From Buttiauxella sp. A111 (GTDB lineage Bacteria > Pseudomonadota > Gammaproteobacteria > Enterobacterales > Enterobacteriaceae): 64,000 nt of DNA. The notes under the pieces were generated by a model. The model was not told where the DNA came from, did no database searches, and worked only from the letters and a program-made list of their open reading frames with translations. Every line of letters begins with the position of its first letter. Position 1 is the stretch's first letter. Position numbers and translations under genes: made by a program. Below are positions 57,293 to 64,000 of the stretch, piece by piece. The stretch is from assembly GCF_014189855.1 (NCBI RefSeq), contig NZ_BJFN01000010.1:1-64000 (forward strand), read 5' to 3'.

Positions 57293-57507
57293 ACCCTCAC
57301 CCTAACCCTCTCCCAAAACGGGAGAGGGGACGTTCTTTTCTCCCTCGCCCAATAGCGAGAAGACGATCTTTTCTCCCTCACCCAATAGCGAGAAGACACT
57401 CTTTTCTCCCTCACCCAATAGCGAGAAGACACTCTTTTCTCCCTCACCCAATAGCGAGAAGACGCTCTTTTCTCCCTCTTCCTTTGGGAGAGGGCTGGGG
57501 TGAGGGG
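57293..57507. repeat. REP-like palindrome with a 33-bp minisatellite
   Basis: The outer arms CCCTCACCCTAACCCTCTCCC and GGGAGAGGGCTGGGGTGAGGG are nearly complementary and make a long hairpin. Between them lie four head-to-tail 33-base units (57336-57368, 57369-57401, 57402-57434, 57435-57467) and the start of a fifth. Each unit begins TTTTCTCCCTC and includes CCCAATAGCGAGAAGAC. Units differ by one to three bases. The arms resemble a widespread REP-type sequence, and the repeats look like slippage growth. It may help end metE and LysR-gene transcripts. Confidence 0.88.
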
Positions 57508-57519
57508 CAAAGCGTTTAT

Positions 57520-58428
57520 TCAACTCCCACCCCCCAACTTCCCACTCACCGCGGGCTGCAACAAATAATCCATACACCAACGGCAAACTTTGCCCATGCC
57601 ATCAGAACGGGCGGCCAGGAATAATTTGGTGGCGTGTTTATGTTCCTGCATCGGTTTTTTCAGCAATTGACCGTTATTAAGCAGAGGCAGCGCCAGATGG
57701 TGCGGAATATAACCGATGCCGACATTTTGCTGGATCAACGCAATAGCGGTGGCGAAGTCCGGGACAAACAGCGGTTTTTGACCTTCCAGCAGCCACGCCT
57801 GTTGTGGGGCGAAGTTGACTGCGGTGTCGCGGATGCAGATAGCGGAATACTGGCGTAGCTCGGCGTTTTCCAGCGGCTGGAGATGCCCGGCAAGCGGGTG
57901 CTGTGGGCTGACCACGAAATCCCACTCCAGTTGACCAATCGGTTCGCTGATGATCCCTTCCGTGCTCGGCACTGAATGCGGCGCGCCAATCACTAAATCA
58001 GCGCGTTTACTGTAAAGCGCGTCCCAGCAGCCGTTGTAAACCTCAAGATTTACCGTCAGCGTGGTGGAGGAAAATTCGCGCTCAAAATCTCGGATAAACT
58101 CAACCAGCGTGGCGGTGGGGATAATATTATTCACCGCGACAGACAGCTCTTTTTCAATCCCGTCATGAATCAGTACTGTGTTGCGTTTAAGCGCATCAAG
58201 ATCGCCAAGAATGGTTTTGCTGTGTTCGATGAAATAGCTACCCGCAGGCGTTAGTTCGATATAGCGGCCCTTGCGGATAAACAGCTCCGCGCCAATGCTC
58301 TCCTCGGCTTTTTTGATGGTGTAACTGATAGCGGATGGCACCTTGTTCAACTGCTCGGCGGCGGTGGTGATGCTCTGATATTTTGCGACCAGATGGACAA
58401 CGCGGATGGTTTCATCGGAGATAAACAT
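57520..58428 (-). CDS. LysR-family regulator, YahB/AllS-like
   Basis: This 302-residue LysR protein has an N-terminal winged HTH (about 1-60, ITTAAEQLNKVPSAISYTIKKAEE) and a C-terminal effector domain (about 90-295) with EVYNGCWDAL and GIGYIPHHLA segments. These resemble YahB and AllS of E. coli, a group tied to ureide-type gene sets. It is the last gene of the minus-strand cluster, 77 bases after the permease, so it may be co-transcribed rather than divergent as is common. Likely regulator of the cluster. The effector is unknown. Confidence 0.8.
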   Translation of the reverse strand: MFISDETIRVVHLVAKYQSITTAAEQLNKVPSAISYTIKKAEESIGAELFIRKGRYIELTPAGSYFIEHSKTILGDLDALKRNTVLIHDGIEKELSVAVNNIIPTATLVEFIRDFEREFSSTTLTVNLEVYNGCWDALYSKRADLVIGAPHSVPSTEGIISEPIGQLEWDFVVSPQHPLAGHLQPLENAELRQYSAICIRDTAVNFAPQQAWLLEGQKPLFVPDFATAIALIQQNVGIGYIPHHLALPLLNNGQLLKKPMQEHKHATKLFLAARSDGMGKVCRWCMDYLLQPAVSGKLGGGS

Positions 58429-58505
58429 GTGGCTTCCTGTCTGTGCGTTGAGTGGCCTGATTCTTCCTGAACCAGACCACTGTATTACGCAAGTATACCC
58501 AGGAA

Positions 58506-59729
58506 TTAGCTGCGGTTACTTATACGGCTCAACACCGCATAAGCGACGCAGGCCACAGCAATTGAATCTACTGAAGGGATGGTGGTGAGCGTAAACAGCC
58601 CATTGACCGTCATAAAGCCAACGGCGGCACCGAGAATCCAGGCAACGAAGGTCATAACTTTGATTTGCGGGTCGCGGGTCAGCACTGATTCTTCGTAACC
58701 GTTACGGCGATAAAGGAAGAAGTCAGCGATATAAATCCCGGCAACCGGCGGCGTGGCAATCCCGAGGAACAGCAGGAACGGGATAAACCAGGACATGATA
58801 TCCATGCTACCGACGATGGCGGATAAAATTCCTAGTGCGACGGTGATCTGCCATTTAGGGAAACGGGTCACCAGGGTGGAAACCACCAGCGTACCCTGGA
58901 ACATATTCCCGGCATTACCGGTGACGCAGGCAAAAATCAGCAGCACAGCGGCAGGCAAAACGGCACCGAATACCGCCATTGCGCCGAGTAAAGAACCCTG
59001 ACCGGAGATGGCACTAGGCGTCGCACCCGCCCAATACAGCAGCGGATAAGCCACCAGAAACGTCAATCCTGCGGCGATCAGCGCATGTTTGCGGTTATGC
59101 ACGAAACTGCCGAAATCGGGCAGCGTGGCAACCAGCACGATGATTGTGCCGACCACGGTTGATACTGCGACGCCGGTGTTCATGCTGGTGAACGCAGCGG
59201 GTGCGGCGACTTCTGTATGCGTTGCGACGTAAAGAATGTAGCAAAGCACCAGCGCAATCACCGGCACGGCGAACTGTGCCACTTTACCTAACACCGCAAA
59301 ACCAAACGCGGTTGAGGCAACAAAAATCACACAGCCCGCAGCTACCAGCAGTTGCACCGGCAGTTCCAGCCCATGTTGTGCCAGTAAATCATGCACTGAA
59401 TGGCCGAACATATTGGCGGTCACCGCAATCCAGCCAAACAGGCTGATGGCCATCAGAATGTTGATAGCAATCGCGCCTTTCTCGCCAAACGGATATTTCA
59501 CAATGCCGTAAGTGGGCAGACGGGCTTTTTCGCCCACGCTGATTGTAATCGCTGACAACACGGTCAGAATCAGGCCGCCCAACAATACGACGCTTATCAG
59601 ACTGGAGCTGGAAAGCTGGTTGCCGAGGCTTGAAGACGACAGCAGCACGGGCGTGACGGCAATGCCCAGCAAAATCATGGCAATACGTAATCCTGACGCC
59701 GTGTTGAGACTCTCTTGGGTCTTACGCAT
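58506..59729 (-). CDS. NCS1-family permease (cytosine permease-like)
   Basis: This 407-residue polytopic membrane protein has about 12 predicted helices and resembles CodB/purine-cytosine permeases of the NCS1 family. Segments GLRIAMILLGIAVTPVLL, KYPFGEKGAIAINILMAISLFGWI and TPPVAGIYIADFFLYRR are typical. Its ribosome site is AGAGGGAAC. It lies 24 bases after the small AtzF-like gene. NCS1 members carry pyrimidines, purines, hydantoins, allantoin and related compounds with Na+ or H+. Here it likely imports the substrate of the cluster; which one cannot be told from sequence. Confidence 0.82.
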   Translation of the reverse strand: MRKTQESLNTASGLRIAMILLGIAVTPVLLSSSSLGNQLSSSSLISVVLLGGLILTVLSAITISVGEKARLPTYGIVKYPFGEKGAIAINILMAISLFGWIAVTANMFGHSVHDLLAQHGLELPVQLLVAAGCVIFVASTAFGFAVLGKVAQFAVPVIALVLCYILYVATHTEVAAPAAFTSMNTGVAVSTVVGTIIVLVATLPDFGSFVHNRKHALIAAGLTFLVAYPLLYWAGATPSAISGQGSLLGAMAVFGAVLPAAVLLIFACVTGNAGNMFQGTLVVSTLVTRFPKWQITVALGILSAIVGSMDIMSWFIPFLLFLGIATPPVAGIYIADFFLYRRNGYEESVLTRDPQIKVMTFVAWILGAAVGFMTVNGLFTLTTIPSVDSIAVACVAYAVLSRISNRS

Positions 59730-59753
59730 ATCTTGTTCCCTCTGAATGGCGTT

Positions 59754-60146
59754 TTACGCAGTATGGAAATGGCCGGTGTATTTGCGCCAGCATCCCAGAT
59801 CGGTGATCTCTTTTTGCCCTTCGGTCAGCCAGTTTTCCGCCAGCACGCCCAGCACTTCGCTGCCGTCTTCGAGTTTGACTTTGCCAATGGATAACCCGGC
59901 AGGCTCGCTTTCCAGCAGTGCGGCGAAGCTGGCTAACGGCAACTCCCAGATTTCCAGCGATACATTTGTGCCGCCTTGCATCACGCGGATCATGCCTGGA
60001 TGGTCGTCGTTAATGCTCCAGATGCGGTAGTGGGCGTCGGTACGGGCTTCACGCACGAAGACACCGCCTGCTTTTTGCATGTTCGGGTTGAGTTTCAGGC
60101 CGCGCATCAGGGTGCCGTTGACTGCGAGTAAAGTTGTTGCTGTCAT
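59754..60146 (-). CDS. Stand-alone allophanate hydrolase C-terminal-like protein
   Basis: This 130-residue soluble protein starts at MTATTLLAVNGTLMRG (60146), with a GGAGA ribosome site; the frame opens 16 codons upstream. NGTLMRGLKLNPNMQKAGGV, YRIWSIND-HPGMIRV, SLEIWELP and GIGKVKL-type segments (here SIGKVKLEDGSEVLG) resemble the C-terminal domain of allophanate hydrolase (AtzF/DUR1). This has a gamma-glutamylcyclotransferase-like fold. In that enzyme the domain acts on the N-carboxycarbamate released by the amidase. Here it is a separate gene with no amidase half in the window. Function in this cluster is inference. Confidence 0.7.
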   Translation of the reverse strand: MTATTLLAVNGTLMRGLKLNPNMQKAGGVFVREARTDAHYRIWSINDDHPGMIRVMQGGTNVSLEIWELPLASFAALLESEPAGLSIGKVKLEDGSEVLGVLAENWLTEGQKEITDLGCWRKYTGHFHTA

Positions 60147-60203
60147 GATAGTTCTCCAGAAATTTGCCAAAAGGAAGGTTTTGTCTCCCTTCAATAAATA
60201 CGA

Positions 60204-61163
60204 TTAAGGTGCGATCCAGGTGCCGCTTTGGTGAGCAAGAGCCGCTTTAATGGCCTGCGGGCTGGTGATCAGGCCGCTGGCATTTTTGCCCTGCTTCTGG
60301 CTGGCATTCACAAAGCCGAGAATCGCTTCCACTTTTGGCTGCATGCTGCCAACGCCGAATTGCCCTTGATCTAAAAGCTCCTGCGCTTTGGCGACGGTCA
60401 GCGTGTCCAGCCATTCCTGCTGTGGGGTGCCGAAGTTAATCGCCACTTTTTCCACGCCGGTTGGGATCAGCAACAGGTCGGCACCTAATTGGCTTGCGAG
60501 CAGCGCGGAGGCCAGGTCTTTGTCGATCACCGCTTCAACGCCTTTCAGCTCGCGCTTTTCGTCGCGAATCACAGGAATACCGCCGCCGCCGCAGGCGATG
60601 ACGATGTAGCCCTGTTTCACCAGGTTGGCGATGGTTTCGCGCTCGATCACTTCAAGCGGAGCAGGGGATGGCACGGTGCGACGCCAGCCGCGACCGGCGT
60701 CTTCCATCATTGTCCAGCCGAGTTCTTTCTGGCGCAGTTGCGCGGTTTGCTCGTCCATAAACGCACCAACCGGTTTGCACGGGTTGGCAAAAGCCTCATC
60801 GTCTTTGCTTACTAAGGTTTGCGTCACGAGGGTGACAACCGGCTTGTTGATACCGCGACGCATCAGTTCGTTATGCAGCGCTTTCTGGAACATGTAGCCA
60901 ATCGCGCCCTGGGTGTCGCCTACCGCGTAATCCAGCGGCACCGGAGCCACTTCGTGGCTTGCCATTTCGGAGCGGCGCAGGATAAAGCCCACCTGTGGGC
61001 CGTTGCCGTGAGTCAGCACCAGATCCCATCCGGCTTCTACCATGTCGGTAATGTGCTTCACGCTTTCCATTACGGCTTCGTACTGATCCGGAATGCTGTT
61101 GTGACTTTCGTCCTGGATCAGCGCGTTGCCGCCTACCGCGACGACAGCTAAAGGTTTGCTCAT
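60204..61163 (-). CDS. Carbamate kinase (YahI/ArcC/AllK-like)
   Basis: This 319-residue amino-acid-kinase-fold enzyme would convert carbamoyl phosphate and ADP to ATP, ammonia and CO2. Motifs are VVAVGGNALI (near residue 6), THGNGPQVGF, VIACGGGGIPV and EAVIDKDLASALLA (near 210), and the C-terminal GVGSMQPKVEAILGF. It starts at MSKPLAVVAV with the ribosome site inside the end of the DUF1116 gene; the two overlap by four bases (ATGA). It is the likely energy-yielding step of the cluster. Confidence 0.9.
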   Translation of the reverse strand: MSKPLAVVAVGGNALIQDESHNSIPDQYEAVMESVKHITDMVEAGWDLVLTHGNGPQVGFILRRSEMASHEVAPVPLDYAVGDTQGAIGYMFQKALHNELMRRGINKPVVTLVTQTLVSKDDEAFANPCKPVGAFMDEQTAQLRQKELGWTMMEDAGRGWRRTVPSPAPLEVIERETIANLVKQGYIVIACGGGGIPVIRDEKRELKGVEAVIDKDLASALLASQLGADLLLIPTGVEKVAINFGTPQQEWLDTLTVAKAQELLDQGQFGVGSMQPKVEAILGFVNASQKQGKNASGLITSPQAIKAALAHQSGTWIAP

Positions 61164-62575
61164 TTTTTTTCTCCTACAGATTGGGCTAACGCCTGAATCG
61201 CGTCCACGAAGCACGACATCGGTGCAGTGGTGATCCCGGCCCCAATCTGGCCTACGCCCGCCTGTTTGTGGGCGATGCCGGTGTTGATGATGGGCAAAAT
61301 GCCACGGTCAGCGACTTTGCGGGCGTCGATGCCAGCGGCGGTCGGCGCGAAGTTCAGCGCGGGCAGCGTAAATGCTGGGTTCGAGCCAATGACGATCGCC
61401 TGCATGCGACGGCTGTTATTGGTGGCATCGGCAGGTGTGCCGCCGACGAATTTCACGATGGCTGGTGAAGACGCCATCGCAAAGCCACCGACGCCTGCGG
61501 TTTCGGTAATCGCGCTGTCGCCCAAATCCGCAGCCGCGTCGTCCACGCCGTAGCCTGGGAAGAACAGCCCTTCGACCGGATTCGCCGGAGCCTGATACCA
61601 CTGGTCGCCAGTGCCGGACAAACGAATGCCAAAGTTCACGCCGTTGCGCGCCATCACCGTGACCATCGAGCTGAATGGCACATCGGCGGCGGCATCCATC
61701 ATCGCTTTACAGGCGGCCATCGACAGGTTGAGGAAGAAGTGGTCGTTGCCGGTAATAAAGGCCACCGCGTTCTGCACGGTTTCCAGCGGCAGGTTACAGG
61801 CCAGCAGCGCAGGCACCAGACGCTTGATCAGCAGGCCCGTGGCGGCGGCGTTACGGTTATGCACTTCATCGCCCATGTGCAGCGCTTGCGCCATCAGCGG
61901 TTTCAGCTCCAGCTCGCCGATTTGACGCACTGCTTTTTTCAGTGCCGGAGCCAGTTCATTGCGCATCCAGTGCAGACGATTGAGGACTTCCTCGTTGTTG
62001 GCGCCGAAACGTAAAACCTTGCCCAGCCCTTCGTTGAAATTGCTGAATGCGCGCTTGCCGTTGGTTTTGTTTTCAATCACCCACAGCGGCATCGACGGGC
62101 TGATAATCCCGGCCATCGGGCCGACGGCGTTGTAGTGGTGGCAAGGCTCGAGGTCGATGGTGCCGCTCTTCGCGAGAGCTTCCGCTTCTTCATGATTGGT
62201 GGCCCAGCCTTCAAACAGGATCGCGCCGACAATCGCCCCTTGTACCGGGCCGCACATGTTGTCCCAGCTGATTGGCGGGCCGGAATGCAGAATCAGTTTG
62301 CGTTCAGCCATCTCCGGAATTGCTTCTGCTGCGAACATCACGTCTACCAGCACCGGCTGTGCGTTCAGGTAACGTTCCATCGCAACCTGGTTTGCCTGCT
62401 CGACCAGCGGGTGACGCAGTAAACTCGCCAGATCCAGCCCGGCGTCAATATTGCCGAGGGCTGGCGGCTGCCAGCTCAACGGAGTCACTTCACCGCCGAC
62501 TTTCTGGATGTTGTTCGCAAATCCTGCCAGCCCGGCGTTGACCACTTTCAGCGGCTGATTAAATAAGGTGTTCAT
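61160..62575 (-). CDS. DUF1116 protein (YahG/AllG-like)
   Basis: This 471-residue protein is strongly similar, as remembered, to E. coli YahG and more distantly to YlbE (AllG). Conserved blocks are HSGPPISWDNMCGPVQGA (near 98-115), CHHYNAVGPMAGIISPSMP, HMGDEVHNRNAAA (near 243), FITGNDHFFLN and MARNGVNFGIRLSGTGDQW. AllF, AllG and AllH together form the oxamate carbamoyltransferase of allantoin fermentation. By analogy this is one subunit of a carbamoyltransferase-type enzyme. It overlaps both neighbours by four bases. Confidence 0.88.
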   Translation of the reverse strand: MNTLFNQPLKVVNAGLAGFANNIQKVGGEVTPLSWQPPALGNIDAGLDLASLLRHPLVEQANQVAMERYLNAQPVLVDVMFAAEAIPEMAERKLILHSGPPISWDNMCGPVQGAIVGAILFEGWATNHEEAEALAKSGTIDLEPCHHYNAVGPMAGIISPSMPLWVIENKTNGKRAFSNFNEGLGKVLRFGANNEEVLNRLHWMRNELAPALKKAVRQIGELELKPLMAQALHMGDEVHNRNAAATGLLIKRLVPALLACNLPLETVQNAVAFITGNDHFFLNLSMAACKAMMDAAADVPFSSMVTVMARNGVNFGIRLSGTGDQWYQAPANPVEGLFFPGYGVDDAAADLGDSAITETAGVGGFAMASSPAIVKFVGGTPADATNNSRRMQAIVIGSNPAFTLPALNFAPTAAGIDARKVADRGILPIINTGIAHKQAGVGQIGAGITTAPMSCFVDAIQALAQSVGEKK

Positions 62576-64000
62576 GCGGTTGCTCCGTTTTTCTTAGCCT
62601 GAATCAGTGCCACGCTGCTTGCCCAAACGGCGGCTTGCGCGTTGCAATCGGCGACAATCACGCCTGCCTCACGCAGGGCTTCAATCTGGCGGTCACGCTG
62701 CTGTGGGTCGGCTTCAGTGCCGCAGACGTGAGCGATGAGAACCGGCAATTTCTGTTTATCAATTTGGGCGAGCAGCTCCAGCAGCCCGGCAGCCGGGTCT
62801 TCCGACGCGCCATAGCCGAGTACCAGGTCAAACAGCACCACGGCGGTTTGCGGATCGTTTAGCTCGTCAAGAATGCGCTGGTTGCGCAGCGTCGGGTCGA
62901 TCATCGGGTGCGGTTTGCCGCGCGTGAAATCGTCATCGCCCATATCGATCAGCGTATGGCCGCTGCTTTTCCAGATATCCGCCAGCTTGCTGTTGCCGGA
63001 AACCGGTGTGTTGGAAGATGCGGTAAAGCCGTTTTGCTGGCACAGAAGCTGTGCTTCATAGCAGAAAGTGCCGCCCGCAAAGACACCGCGAATAAGCTGA
63101 CGCGTGGCTGGCAATGTTGAGCAGGCTTGTTCCAGCATCGCGAGCTGTGCTTCATCAGGACGAGTTGCGTGCTGGCGTAGTTCAGTTTTATTCAGCAATG
63201 CAACGGCGAGATCGGCCGCGCTGGCAAGCGTGGTCGCTGCGGTCACGCCTGGGCGAGCGATGTCTTCTGGCTTCGCGCCAAGGAAGTTCACCACCACTGG
63301 TTTACCTGCTGCCTGAGCCTGCTCCAGAATGCGCTCGGCTACAGCTTTTGCTGGTGGTTTAGAGATCAATACGATGACCTGAGTCGCCGGGTCTTCTGCC
63401 AGCGCTTGCAGGCCAAACAGCATGGAAATGCCGCCAATCTCTTCACTTAAATCGTGGCCGCCGGTGCCCAGCGCCTGGGAAATACCCGCGCCAAGCTGGT
63501 CGATACGGCAGGTGACTTCCTGAACGCCAGTGCCGGACGCGCCGACAATGCCAATCGCGCCGCGGTTCACCACGTTGGCAAAGCCCAACGGAATACCGTT
63601 CACAATCGCGGTGCCGCAGTCCGGGCCCATTACGATACGGTTGCGTTCACGGGCGAGGGTTTTAATCGCTTTTTCCTGTGCGACGCTGACGTTATCGCTG
63701 AACATCATCACGTTCATGCCCAGATTCAGGGCTTTAATCGCTTCGGCGGCGGCGTAGTCGCCCGGTACGGAAATCAGTGCCAGATTGGATTCAGGCTCTT
63801 TTTCCAGCGCCATTTCCATACTCACTAAATCCGGTGCGCGCACGCCGTCGTTGCCGCTTTCCGCTGGTTTGCTATTCAGGCGCTGATGCGCCAGATCCAG
63901 CGCTTCCTGGCAGGCGTCGTCTTCGCCCTGTACTGCGATAACCAAATCGTTTGGCCCGGCGGCGATGTTGTCCCCAAGCCCTGCGTCGTGCAGTTGCTCA
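62572..64000 (-). CDS. FdrA/YahF-like protein (N-terminus outside the window)
   Basis: The open frame continues through the right edge; at least 475 codons are visible. The domain is similar to succinyl-CoA synthetase, with a CoA-ligase-like region (VMGPDCGTAIVNGIPLGFAN near window 63570-63640, IGIVGASGTGVQEVTCRI, ALGTGGHDLSEEIGG). A second domain has HPMIDPTLRNQRILDEL. It belongs with FdrA (AllF) and YahF, partners of YlbE/YahG. It overlaps the DUF1116 gene by four bases. The promoter and any upstream partner, such as a DUF2877 (AllH/YlbF-like) gene, lie outside the window. Confidence 0.87.
   Translation of the reverse strand, partial: EQLHDAGLGDNIAAGPNDLVIAVQGEDDACQEALDLAHQRLNSKPAESGNDGVRAPDLVSMEMALEKEPESNLALISVPGDYAAAEAIKALNLGMNVMMFSDNVSVAQEKAIKTLARERNRIVMGPDCGTAIVNGIPLGFANVVNRGAIGIVGASGTGVQEVTCRIDQLGAGISQALGTGGHDLSEEIGGISMLFGLQALAEDPATQVIVLISKPPAKAVAERILEQAQAAGKPVVVNFLGAKPEDIARPGVTAATTLASAADLAVALLNKTELRQHATRPDEAQLAMLEQACSTLPATRQLIRGVFAGGTFCYEAQLLCQQNGFTASSNTPVSGNSKLADIWKSSGHTLIDMGDDDFTRGKPHPMIDPTLRNQRILDELNDPQTAVVLFDLVLGYGASEDPAAGLLELLAQIDKQKLPVLIAHVCGTEADPQQRDRQIEALREAGVIVADCNAQAAVWASSVALIQAKKNGATA

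Follow-up and report, generated by a model that had tools for sequence, protein, structure and literature searches.

The stretch analysed here, called the window below, comprises 64,000 nucleotides of Buttiauxella sp. A111 (C10:1-64000, + strand, in a draft genome of 4.89 Mb, so that positions on the contig and in the window are the same), and an operon of eight genes runs across its end which, judged from its gene content, probably serves the use of triuret with ATP gained through phosphorolysis of carboxybiuret. In transcription order, the genes encode a TrtA-like hydrolase of the isochorismatase fold (65110-65775 of C10, beyond the window end), an AllH-like protein (DUF2877; 64229-65104 of C10, likewise beyond the window end), an AllF-like (FdrA) subunit of 519 amino acids (62572-64000 in the window, continuing to contig position 64131), an AllG-like carbamoyltransferase subunit (DUF1116; 61160-62575; 471 amino acids, with His279), a carbamate kinase (CK; 60204-61163, overlapping AllG by ATGA), a free AtzF-C-like protein of the Pfam family AH_C (59754-60146; 130 amino acids), a CodB-like NCS1 permease (58506-59729; 407 amino acids) and, as the last gene of the operon, a LysR-type regulator (57520-58428; 302 amino acids); the six that lie in the window are on the minus strand. 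Operator-like and promoter-like sites at 65822-65970 of C10 are followed by ysgA and then udp.

The AllF, AllG and AllH subunits of the AllFGH carbamoyltransferase family are all present (AllF, FdrA model, 502 bits, cut-off 433; AllG, Pfam AllG, 325 bits; AllH, Pfam AllH, 85.8 bits, cut-off 25). The kinase belongs to its family (NCBIfam arcC, 364.2 bits against a cut-off of 358.25), the AtzF-C-like protein matches Pfam AH_C with 137.3 bits (cut-off 27), and the regulator comes closest to two NCBIfam models, PunR at 283 bits (cut-off 345) and AllS at 224 bits (cut-off 372). The starts of the AH_C and CK genes were corrected to ATG 60146 and ATG 61163, the longer open reading frames having used upstream TTG or GTG codons. 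An earlier note on the window had described six minus-strand genes in series; all are present at 57520-64000, with FdrA cut by the window end, and the ATGA overlaps it listed were confirmed in the sequence at the AllF/AllG and AllG/CK junctions. Both the DUF2877 gene and the promoter-like region that it had suggested looking for past base 64000 were found there. Its view that the operon is an insertion after metE fits three observations: the same eight genes lie between metE and ysgA in E. coli LR-28, a genome of the same genus (G019) lacks both free AH_C and any close TrtA-like gene, and metE was seen beside the operon in just 3 of the 17 loci of the family described below, in the stretches examined.

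The best Protein Data Bank match of the hydrolase was 6xix (273.6 bits), which carries the label ‘Cysteine hydrolase’ in the match listing, followed by the Rhizobium BiuH 6azo (242 bits). We took 6xix to be the triuret hydrolase TrtA because the residues given in the accessible part of PMC7948467 align with it at an offset of three, and because 6xj4, which is nearly identical to it, carries Ser in place of the catalytic Cys, like the C162S crystals of that paper. According to the same source, six residues separate TrtA from BiuH (F35, N41, A134, E160, Y187 and I205). The operon's hydrolase has all six, along with the six catalytic residues D24, F29, K129, K132, C162 and Q202, and an identity as BiuH was rejected for the eighth gene on the strength of the TrtA-type residues. 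The complete set of six also occurs in the E. coli chromosomal and plasmid copies, in the Photobacterium copy, in all 16 other operons of the family and in two further loci (L085 and L086); nine BiuH/TrtA-like family loci that have no AllG (L076-L084) carry 0-2 of them. We infer that the hydrolase is of the TrtA type and would be active on triuret.

The association of the genes was surveyed in 198 genomes of the family, with an AH_C match in 72 and an AllG match in 49. Once frames of AtzF length were set aside, together with partial or broken matches in six genomes (G028, G051, G054, G095, G107 and G184; judged by score and frame only, and without a match in the family AllG search), free AH_C was counted in 17 of the 198, in every case with AllG within 1.7 kb. 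A TrtA-like gene of 72-100% identity adjoins the two in 17/17 genomes, and no identity above 53% was seen outside them; with AllG and the TrtA-like gene beside free AH_C every time, the association is not one of chance. The co-occurrence of the six families elsewhere, on which the earlier note had made its reading depend, was thereby borne out. By tblastn, TrtA, AllF, AllG, CK and AH_C were found in all 17 loci, and AllH in all except L054 and L068. Five loci (L055, L058, L063, L064 and L068) are without the NCS1 gene and have a 532-amino-acid NCS2-type permease beside AH_C instead. In one genome (G126; L053 6445-7991) AllF is split into two overlapping open reading frames, through decay or an assembly error. 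A search for a second BiuH/TrtA-like gene in the 17 genomes gave no match at E <= 1e-20 in 12 and one of 31-33% identity in five; allophanate is therefore unlikely to be formed by BiuH in these genomes. Fused AtzF, defined as an AH_C match within a frame of 612-678 amino acids, was present in 10 of the 17 and urease in 4; since another 4 have neither, neither seems needed, and the operon should pay by itself.

A survey of 398 genomes of the phylum gave five AllG places outside the family with over 290 bits, four of which adjoin a TrtA-like gene (G439, G445 and two in G507); all four also have an AH_C match (44-76% identity). Among the weaker places (20.8-215 bits; G213, G385, G433, G485 and G517), only the locus of G517 (L095) was opened. 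The complete eight-gene set is present on Photobacterium pDA100. G507 has the TrtA-AllHFG-CK-AH_C set twice, as well as a third TrtA-like gene with an AllH match next to it (L087, L088 and L089). Four TrtA loci without AllG were fetched, and three of them (L091-L093) lie next to a permease that shares 49-52% identity with the large permease of the second operon variant; uptake and first cut can therefore stay together while the ending differs.

A related core was found beside a second kind of hydrolase. On the Leclercia plasmid pE61_001 (typed IncHI2A), AllH, AllF, AllG (79% identical to that of the window) and CK have as neighbours a ring-opening hydrolase, an NCS2 permease and a carrier that matches DcuC weakly. 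The hydrolase scored 580 bits with the cyanuric acid hydrolase model (cut-off 360), and 582 bits against the Moorella enzyme versus 327 against barbiturase. Barbiturate or ureidomalonate was considered as substrate of this plasmid operon and rejected, the hydrolase being a cyanuric acid hydrolase. A scan with this protein over one genome per species (84,980 species) returned 28 loci. The six hydrolases at least 60% identical to the plasmid enzyme all adjoin AllF, AllG, CK and a DcuC-like gene, five of them with AllH; these are L025 and L027, which are 97-100% copies of the plasmid hydrolase and count among the six, and those of Moorella mulderi, Enterococcus aquimarinus, Amphibacillus marinus and Paenibacillus tepidiphilus. 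Two more distant loci have AllH, AllF and AllG with no CK match (L042) or AllF at a contig end (L051). TrtA-like and cyanuric acid hydrolase genes share one cluster with a single AllFG core in Amphibacillus, and Peptoclostridium has a TrtA-like gene, no cyanuric acid hydrolase in the stretch examined, and AllF and AllG that fall among the cyanuric-linked rows.

Single clusters of this group deserve mention. In Moorella mulderi (L026 4836-14219) the genes run DcuC-like, AllH, AllF, AllG, hydrolase, NCS2 and CK, and an ATP-yielding cyanuric acid pathway is possible in this genus. The cluster of E. aquimarinus (L028 11183-21104) holds two CK matches in addition to a BiuH-type gene. On the atrazine plasmid pTC1 of Paenarthrobacter aurescens TC1, the stretch between atzB and atzC holds a CK and a truncated AllG with 57.6% identity over residues 301-465 (L023 6986-8435; L075 7001-8435), and a DcuC-like carrier lies further on; this looks like what is left of an AllFG cluster of the cyanuric type next to the atrazine genes.

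In trees of AllG and AllF, the enteric cyanuric-linked rows fall inside the TrtA-linked clade (AllG, 14-row set, 100/99; AllF, 13-row set, 99/98), which indicates that the upstream enzyme was exchanged and the core kept. The Firmicutes cyanuric-linked rows form with Peptoclostridium a separate supported clade (AllG 100/98, AllF 99/92) that is sister to yah (AllG 99/96, AllF 100/98), and the all-type rows stand apart (AllG 100/95, including G474; AllF 94/92). Roots were placed at midpoints and several long branches were flagged, that of Moorella included; the later AllG and AllF trees omit ten loci of the first AllG tree (L017, L021, L022, L025, L042, L053, L064, L065, L067 and L073). Across 26 TrtA- or cyanuric-linked and 3 all-type rows, 102 AllG and 76 AllF positions are invariant, and the chemistry is therefore likely kept. 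Columns of charged residues fixed differently in these 26 and 3 rows number one in AllG (His279 versus Gln) and none in AllF. The reading of residue 279 covered every one of the 68 AllG places in the family survey, namely 17 operon loci, 48 that were fetched, L010, L011 and L016 (L015 repeats L011 and was counted once), and other loci as well. It is His in 33/33 TrtA- or cyanuric-linked, Gln in 34/34 all-type and Tyr in 21/21 yah-type rows, where all-type means that the nearest reference is all-type, a label given by similarity to E. coli AllFGH. Outside these counts stand L021 and L022, which were not read, the distant AllG copy of L095 (40% identity, His279, beside an AtzF-like match) and L090 (G474, Gln279).

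Triuret is an oxidation product of uric acid. In the pathway that we propose, it would be imported by the NCS1 permease, and the TrtA-like hydrolase would cut one terminal amide to give 1-carboxybiuret and NH3, an activity predicted from the residues checked above. TrtA and cyanuric acid hydrolase both produce 1-carboxybiuret, at which the triuret and cyanuric acid routes converge (PMC7948467, in the part available). E. coli AllFGH converts oxalurate to carbamoyl phosphate and oxamate (PMC11326118, accessible portion), and by analogy the AllF/AllG/AllH paralogue would phosphorolyse the N-acylurea end of 1-carboxybiuret, giving carbamoyl phosphate and allophanate. CK, by its family function, would use carbamoyl phosphate and ADP to form ATP and carbamate, the latter yielding CO2 and NH3; the allophanate may leave as such, decay to urea or feed AtzF where the genome has one. 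The free AH_C protein would act on one of the intermediates, and the LysR protein is the likely regulator of the promoter upstream of trtA. The carbamoyl donor is most likely carboxybiuret or biuret because the common core follows both hydrolases and no BiuH was found in the 17 genomes. Of the two we favour carboxybiuret because it retains oxalurate's carboxylate, being the same kind of N-acylurea with one NH inserted. The earlier reading thus stands as far as a carbamoyl compound is concerned, with an AllFGH and CK core expected to yield carbamoyl phosphate and ATP; the class of substrate it had named (ureide, hydantoin or pyrimidine) did not hold up, since the eighth gene is TrtA-like and relatives of AllFG pair with cyanuric acid hydrolase.

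The part of the AH_C protein bears on whether biuret itself could be the donor. Such a route, in which CO2 is lost from carboxybiuret, by the action of free AH_C or without an enzyme, and the AllFGH paralogue then turns biuret into carbamoyl phosphate and urea, appears unlikely to us, although it survives better than the other alternatives. The C domain of AtzF decarboxylates an N-carboxy compound, and AH_C is present in all 24 proteobacterial TrtA-AllG loci examined. In favour of this route is also the decay of carboxybiuret, whose half-life is near 20 min (PMC7948467, available in part). However, where the four fused C domains compared share an invariant His, 20/20 aligned free copies and 4 more have Leu. 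This is the His of the GAHL motif, which we take to be the catalytic residue of the AtzF C domain, and its loss makes it doubtful that free AH_C is a plain decarboxylase of the AtzF type. The protein also consists of AH_C only, at 130 amino acids, without the amidase domain fused to it in AtzF. A different chemistry is possible in view of weak matches to the GGACT cyclotransferase family (16.8 and 20.1 bits against a cut-off of 22.8; 44.1 bits for the G445 copy) and of an invariant Glu in the free copies (E81 of the window protein) where the four fused C domains have none. The window protein is 85% identical to the solved structure 5c5z (Foldseek), the c4763 protein of uropathogenic E. coli, which was crystallised as ‘uropathogenic E. 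coli-specific’. Its predicted structure (mean predicted local distance difference test score 65) led Foldseek to 5c5z, AtzF C domains and cyclotransferases and added little beyond the sequence. Against biuret as donor stand also the lack of an AH_C match in all 28 cyanuric loci (tblastn, E <= 1e-6, several contigs being short) and the polar residues of AllFG, which are almost as in the oxalurate type, whose substrate has a carboxylate.

Several points weigh against carboxybiuret as donor and triuret as substrate. We know of no activity for the AllFGH set of this operon. The finding of AH_C at every one of the TrtA-AllG loci above and at no cyanuric locus is left unexplained by a common donor, and AllF and AllG were not found in the other 20 of the 28 cyanuric loci (44-49% identity, several contigs short). 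One strong AllG outside the family, that of G474, is not linked to TrtA and has Gln279. The TrtA-type residues are 5/6 in the three G507 copies, one of which has Leu in the Q202 column, and 4/6 in the TrtA-like proteins of the Firmicutes Peptoclostridium and Amphibacillus. L091-L094, which are TrtA loci of the phylum survey without AllG, have 6/6, so the residue type marks triuret hydrolase and not the operon. Residue 279 follows the clades and its counts are not independent, which makes it a marker to test, not a proof; the assignment of oxalurate to the all-type rows has E. coli AllFGH as its single source (PMC11326118, portion available).

A use of pyrimidines, hydantoins or ureides, or the RutB-like, CodB-like and oxamate reading given for E. 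coli BEN2908 (PMC12928451, as far as available), is very improbable in our view. The CodB-like permease, a hydrolase of the RutB superfamily and a regulator nearest to PunR and AllS would suit it. Yet the RutB model gives 111.5 bits against a cut-off of 378, well under the BiuH/TrtA scores, no ring-opening pyrimidine or hydantoin enzyme is among the eight genes, and the ring-opening enzyme of the related plasmid operon is a cyanuric acid hydrolase rather than a barbiturase. Less probable again is a BiuH-like hydrolase that makes allophanate, which the AllFGH paralogue would split with phosphate into carbamoyl phosphate and carbamate. The NCBIfam model nearest to the hydrolase is indeed BiuH, at 275.6 bits and under its cut-off of 370, and the BiuH-type gene (1/6 TrtA-type residues) in the cyanuric cluster of E. 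aquimarinus would fit allophanate as donor there; both count against carboxybiuret. The full set of TrtA-type residues in the window's operon and the lack of a TrtA/BiuH-like match in the enteric cyanuric loci L025 and L027 speak against allophanate. Least probable of all is a reading with two independent pathways encoded next to each other, one hydrolysing triuret and one carrying out true oxalurate transcarbamylation, as given for nitrifiers that also hold both sets adjacent (PMC12625717, part available): oxalurate is the only AllFGH substrate known to us (PMC11326118, accessible portion), but an all-type set is already present elsewhere in the source genome (L011), the two sets differ at AllG 279 and 6/6 close cyanuric acid hydrolases carry the AllFG core too.

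Compared with AllFGH and AllK of E. coli, the oxamic transcarbamylase system of allantoin fermentation (PMC11326118, accessible portion), the operon has the same three subunits and a CK, whereas its AllF and AllG belong to another clade, AllG has His rather than Gln at 279, and the linkage is to TrtA, AH_C and a permease rather than to allantoin genes. No allantoin or ureidoglycolate gene was found among the eight operon genes or the listed neighbours, while the E. coli all locus has AllC/D/E. With the Herbaspirillum pathway TrtA-TrtB-BiuH-AtzF (PMC7948467, summarised in PMC12625717, both available in part) the operon shares the six TrtA-type residues; it differs in its ending, which is a carbamoyltransferase and kinase with a predicted gain of ATP instead of hydrolysis by BiuH and AtzF. 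The cyanuric acid pathways AtzDGEHF and CAH-BiuH (PMC6219798) have the carboxybiuret node in common, but in Moorella mulderi, Amphibacillus, Paenibacillus, E. aquimarinus and the enteric plasmids the hydrolase adjoins AllFG and CK. The E. coli yah operon likewise has AllF/AllG/AllH-like genes and CK, with the amidohydrolase YahJ where the operon has TrtA, and with Tyr at AllG 279. Besides the operon, the source genome has a yah-like set (L010, on C3), the all-like set (L011, on C6) and, on C1, a 613-amino-acid frame with an AH_C match, taken as AtzF. In its yah-like set (L010 2604-10400) an NCS2-type permease, 40% identical to the large TrtA-linked permease, lies between AllG and CK, where K-12 has the small YahH. 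The substrate of the yah set may be a related compound, its AllFG being sister to the Firmicutes cyanuric/TrtA clade.

The operon has appeared in print before. The tkt1 island between metE and ysgA of extraintestinal E. coli contains a regulator, a permease, a hypothetical gene, carbamate kinase, yahG, yahF, yahE and an isochorismatase (PMC3349570), and the available part of that paper gives no function for the operon genes beyond a note on carbamate kinase. Region GR 29 of BEN2908 contains the operon and was read as Rut-like pyrimidine use with oxamate transcarbamylation (PMC12928451, as far as available). In comammox bacteria, trtA, biuH and atzF lie next to allFGHK and were treated as separate purine-product pathways (PMC12625717, part available). 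A term search in the available parts of PMC9118981 and PMC7439467 returned nothing on the operon. Among the matches listed from the open-licence literature, none proposes an AllFGH enzyme that uses carboxybiuret, biuret or allophanate, or joins cyanuric acid, triuret or carboxybiuret to a carbamate kinase or carbamoyltransferase in a single pathway. Of 5426 complete E. coli genomes, 1543 contain 80% or more of the operon of E. coli LR-28, and the matching places, 1618 in all, divide into 1489 on chromosomes and 129 on plasmids; a lysR match was not seen in the E. coli plasmid copy that was opened (L017).

Before trtA, at C10 65822-65970, a GCATCAAATTATTTGCTGC-like repeat and an ATACTC/AATACT element are common to related loci and are likely the LysR operator and the -10 element. 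The repeat GCATCAAATTATTTGCTGC occurs with at most 3 mismatches in 11/13 loci, a count made in the sequences from which the consensus was derived, so that shuffle counts are not a fair test of it. Consensus scans of this region for FNR, sigma-54, Nac and ArcA gave no site common to the loci; single FNR-like sites with one mismatch were present in L017 and L066, and a CRP-like site with one mismatch in 6/15 loci. At the other end of the operon, between metE and the LysR gene, lies a tandem array of 4.5 copies of a 33-base unit (57329-57478; 95% matches), and the sequence on its flanks is of the CTCTCCC...GGGAGAGGG type.

More broadly, these comparisons raise the prospect, which we regard as evenly balanced, that the AllFGH family has a second, so far undescribed enzyme, a phosphorolytic 1-carboxybiuret carbamoyltransferase that with CK would form the ATP-yielding end for triuret and cyanuric acid in anaerobes such as Moorella and in over a quarter of complete E. 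coli genomes; AllG His279 would then be the mark of this substrate. If this is true, the AllFGH family would be widened from the one substrate known to us to at least two, with a testable one-residue marker, and genes without known function in 1543/5426 complete E. coli genomes, c4763 included, would receive a substrate. Moorella would keep cyanuric acid hydrolase for ATP as well as for nitrogen, and uric acid oxidation products would be tied to the energy metabolism of gut bacteria, as far as the presumed ecology holds.

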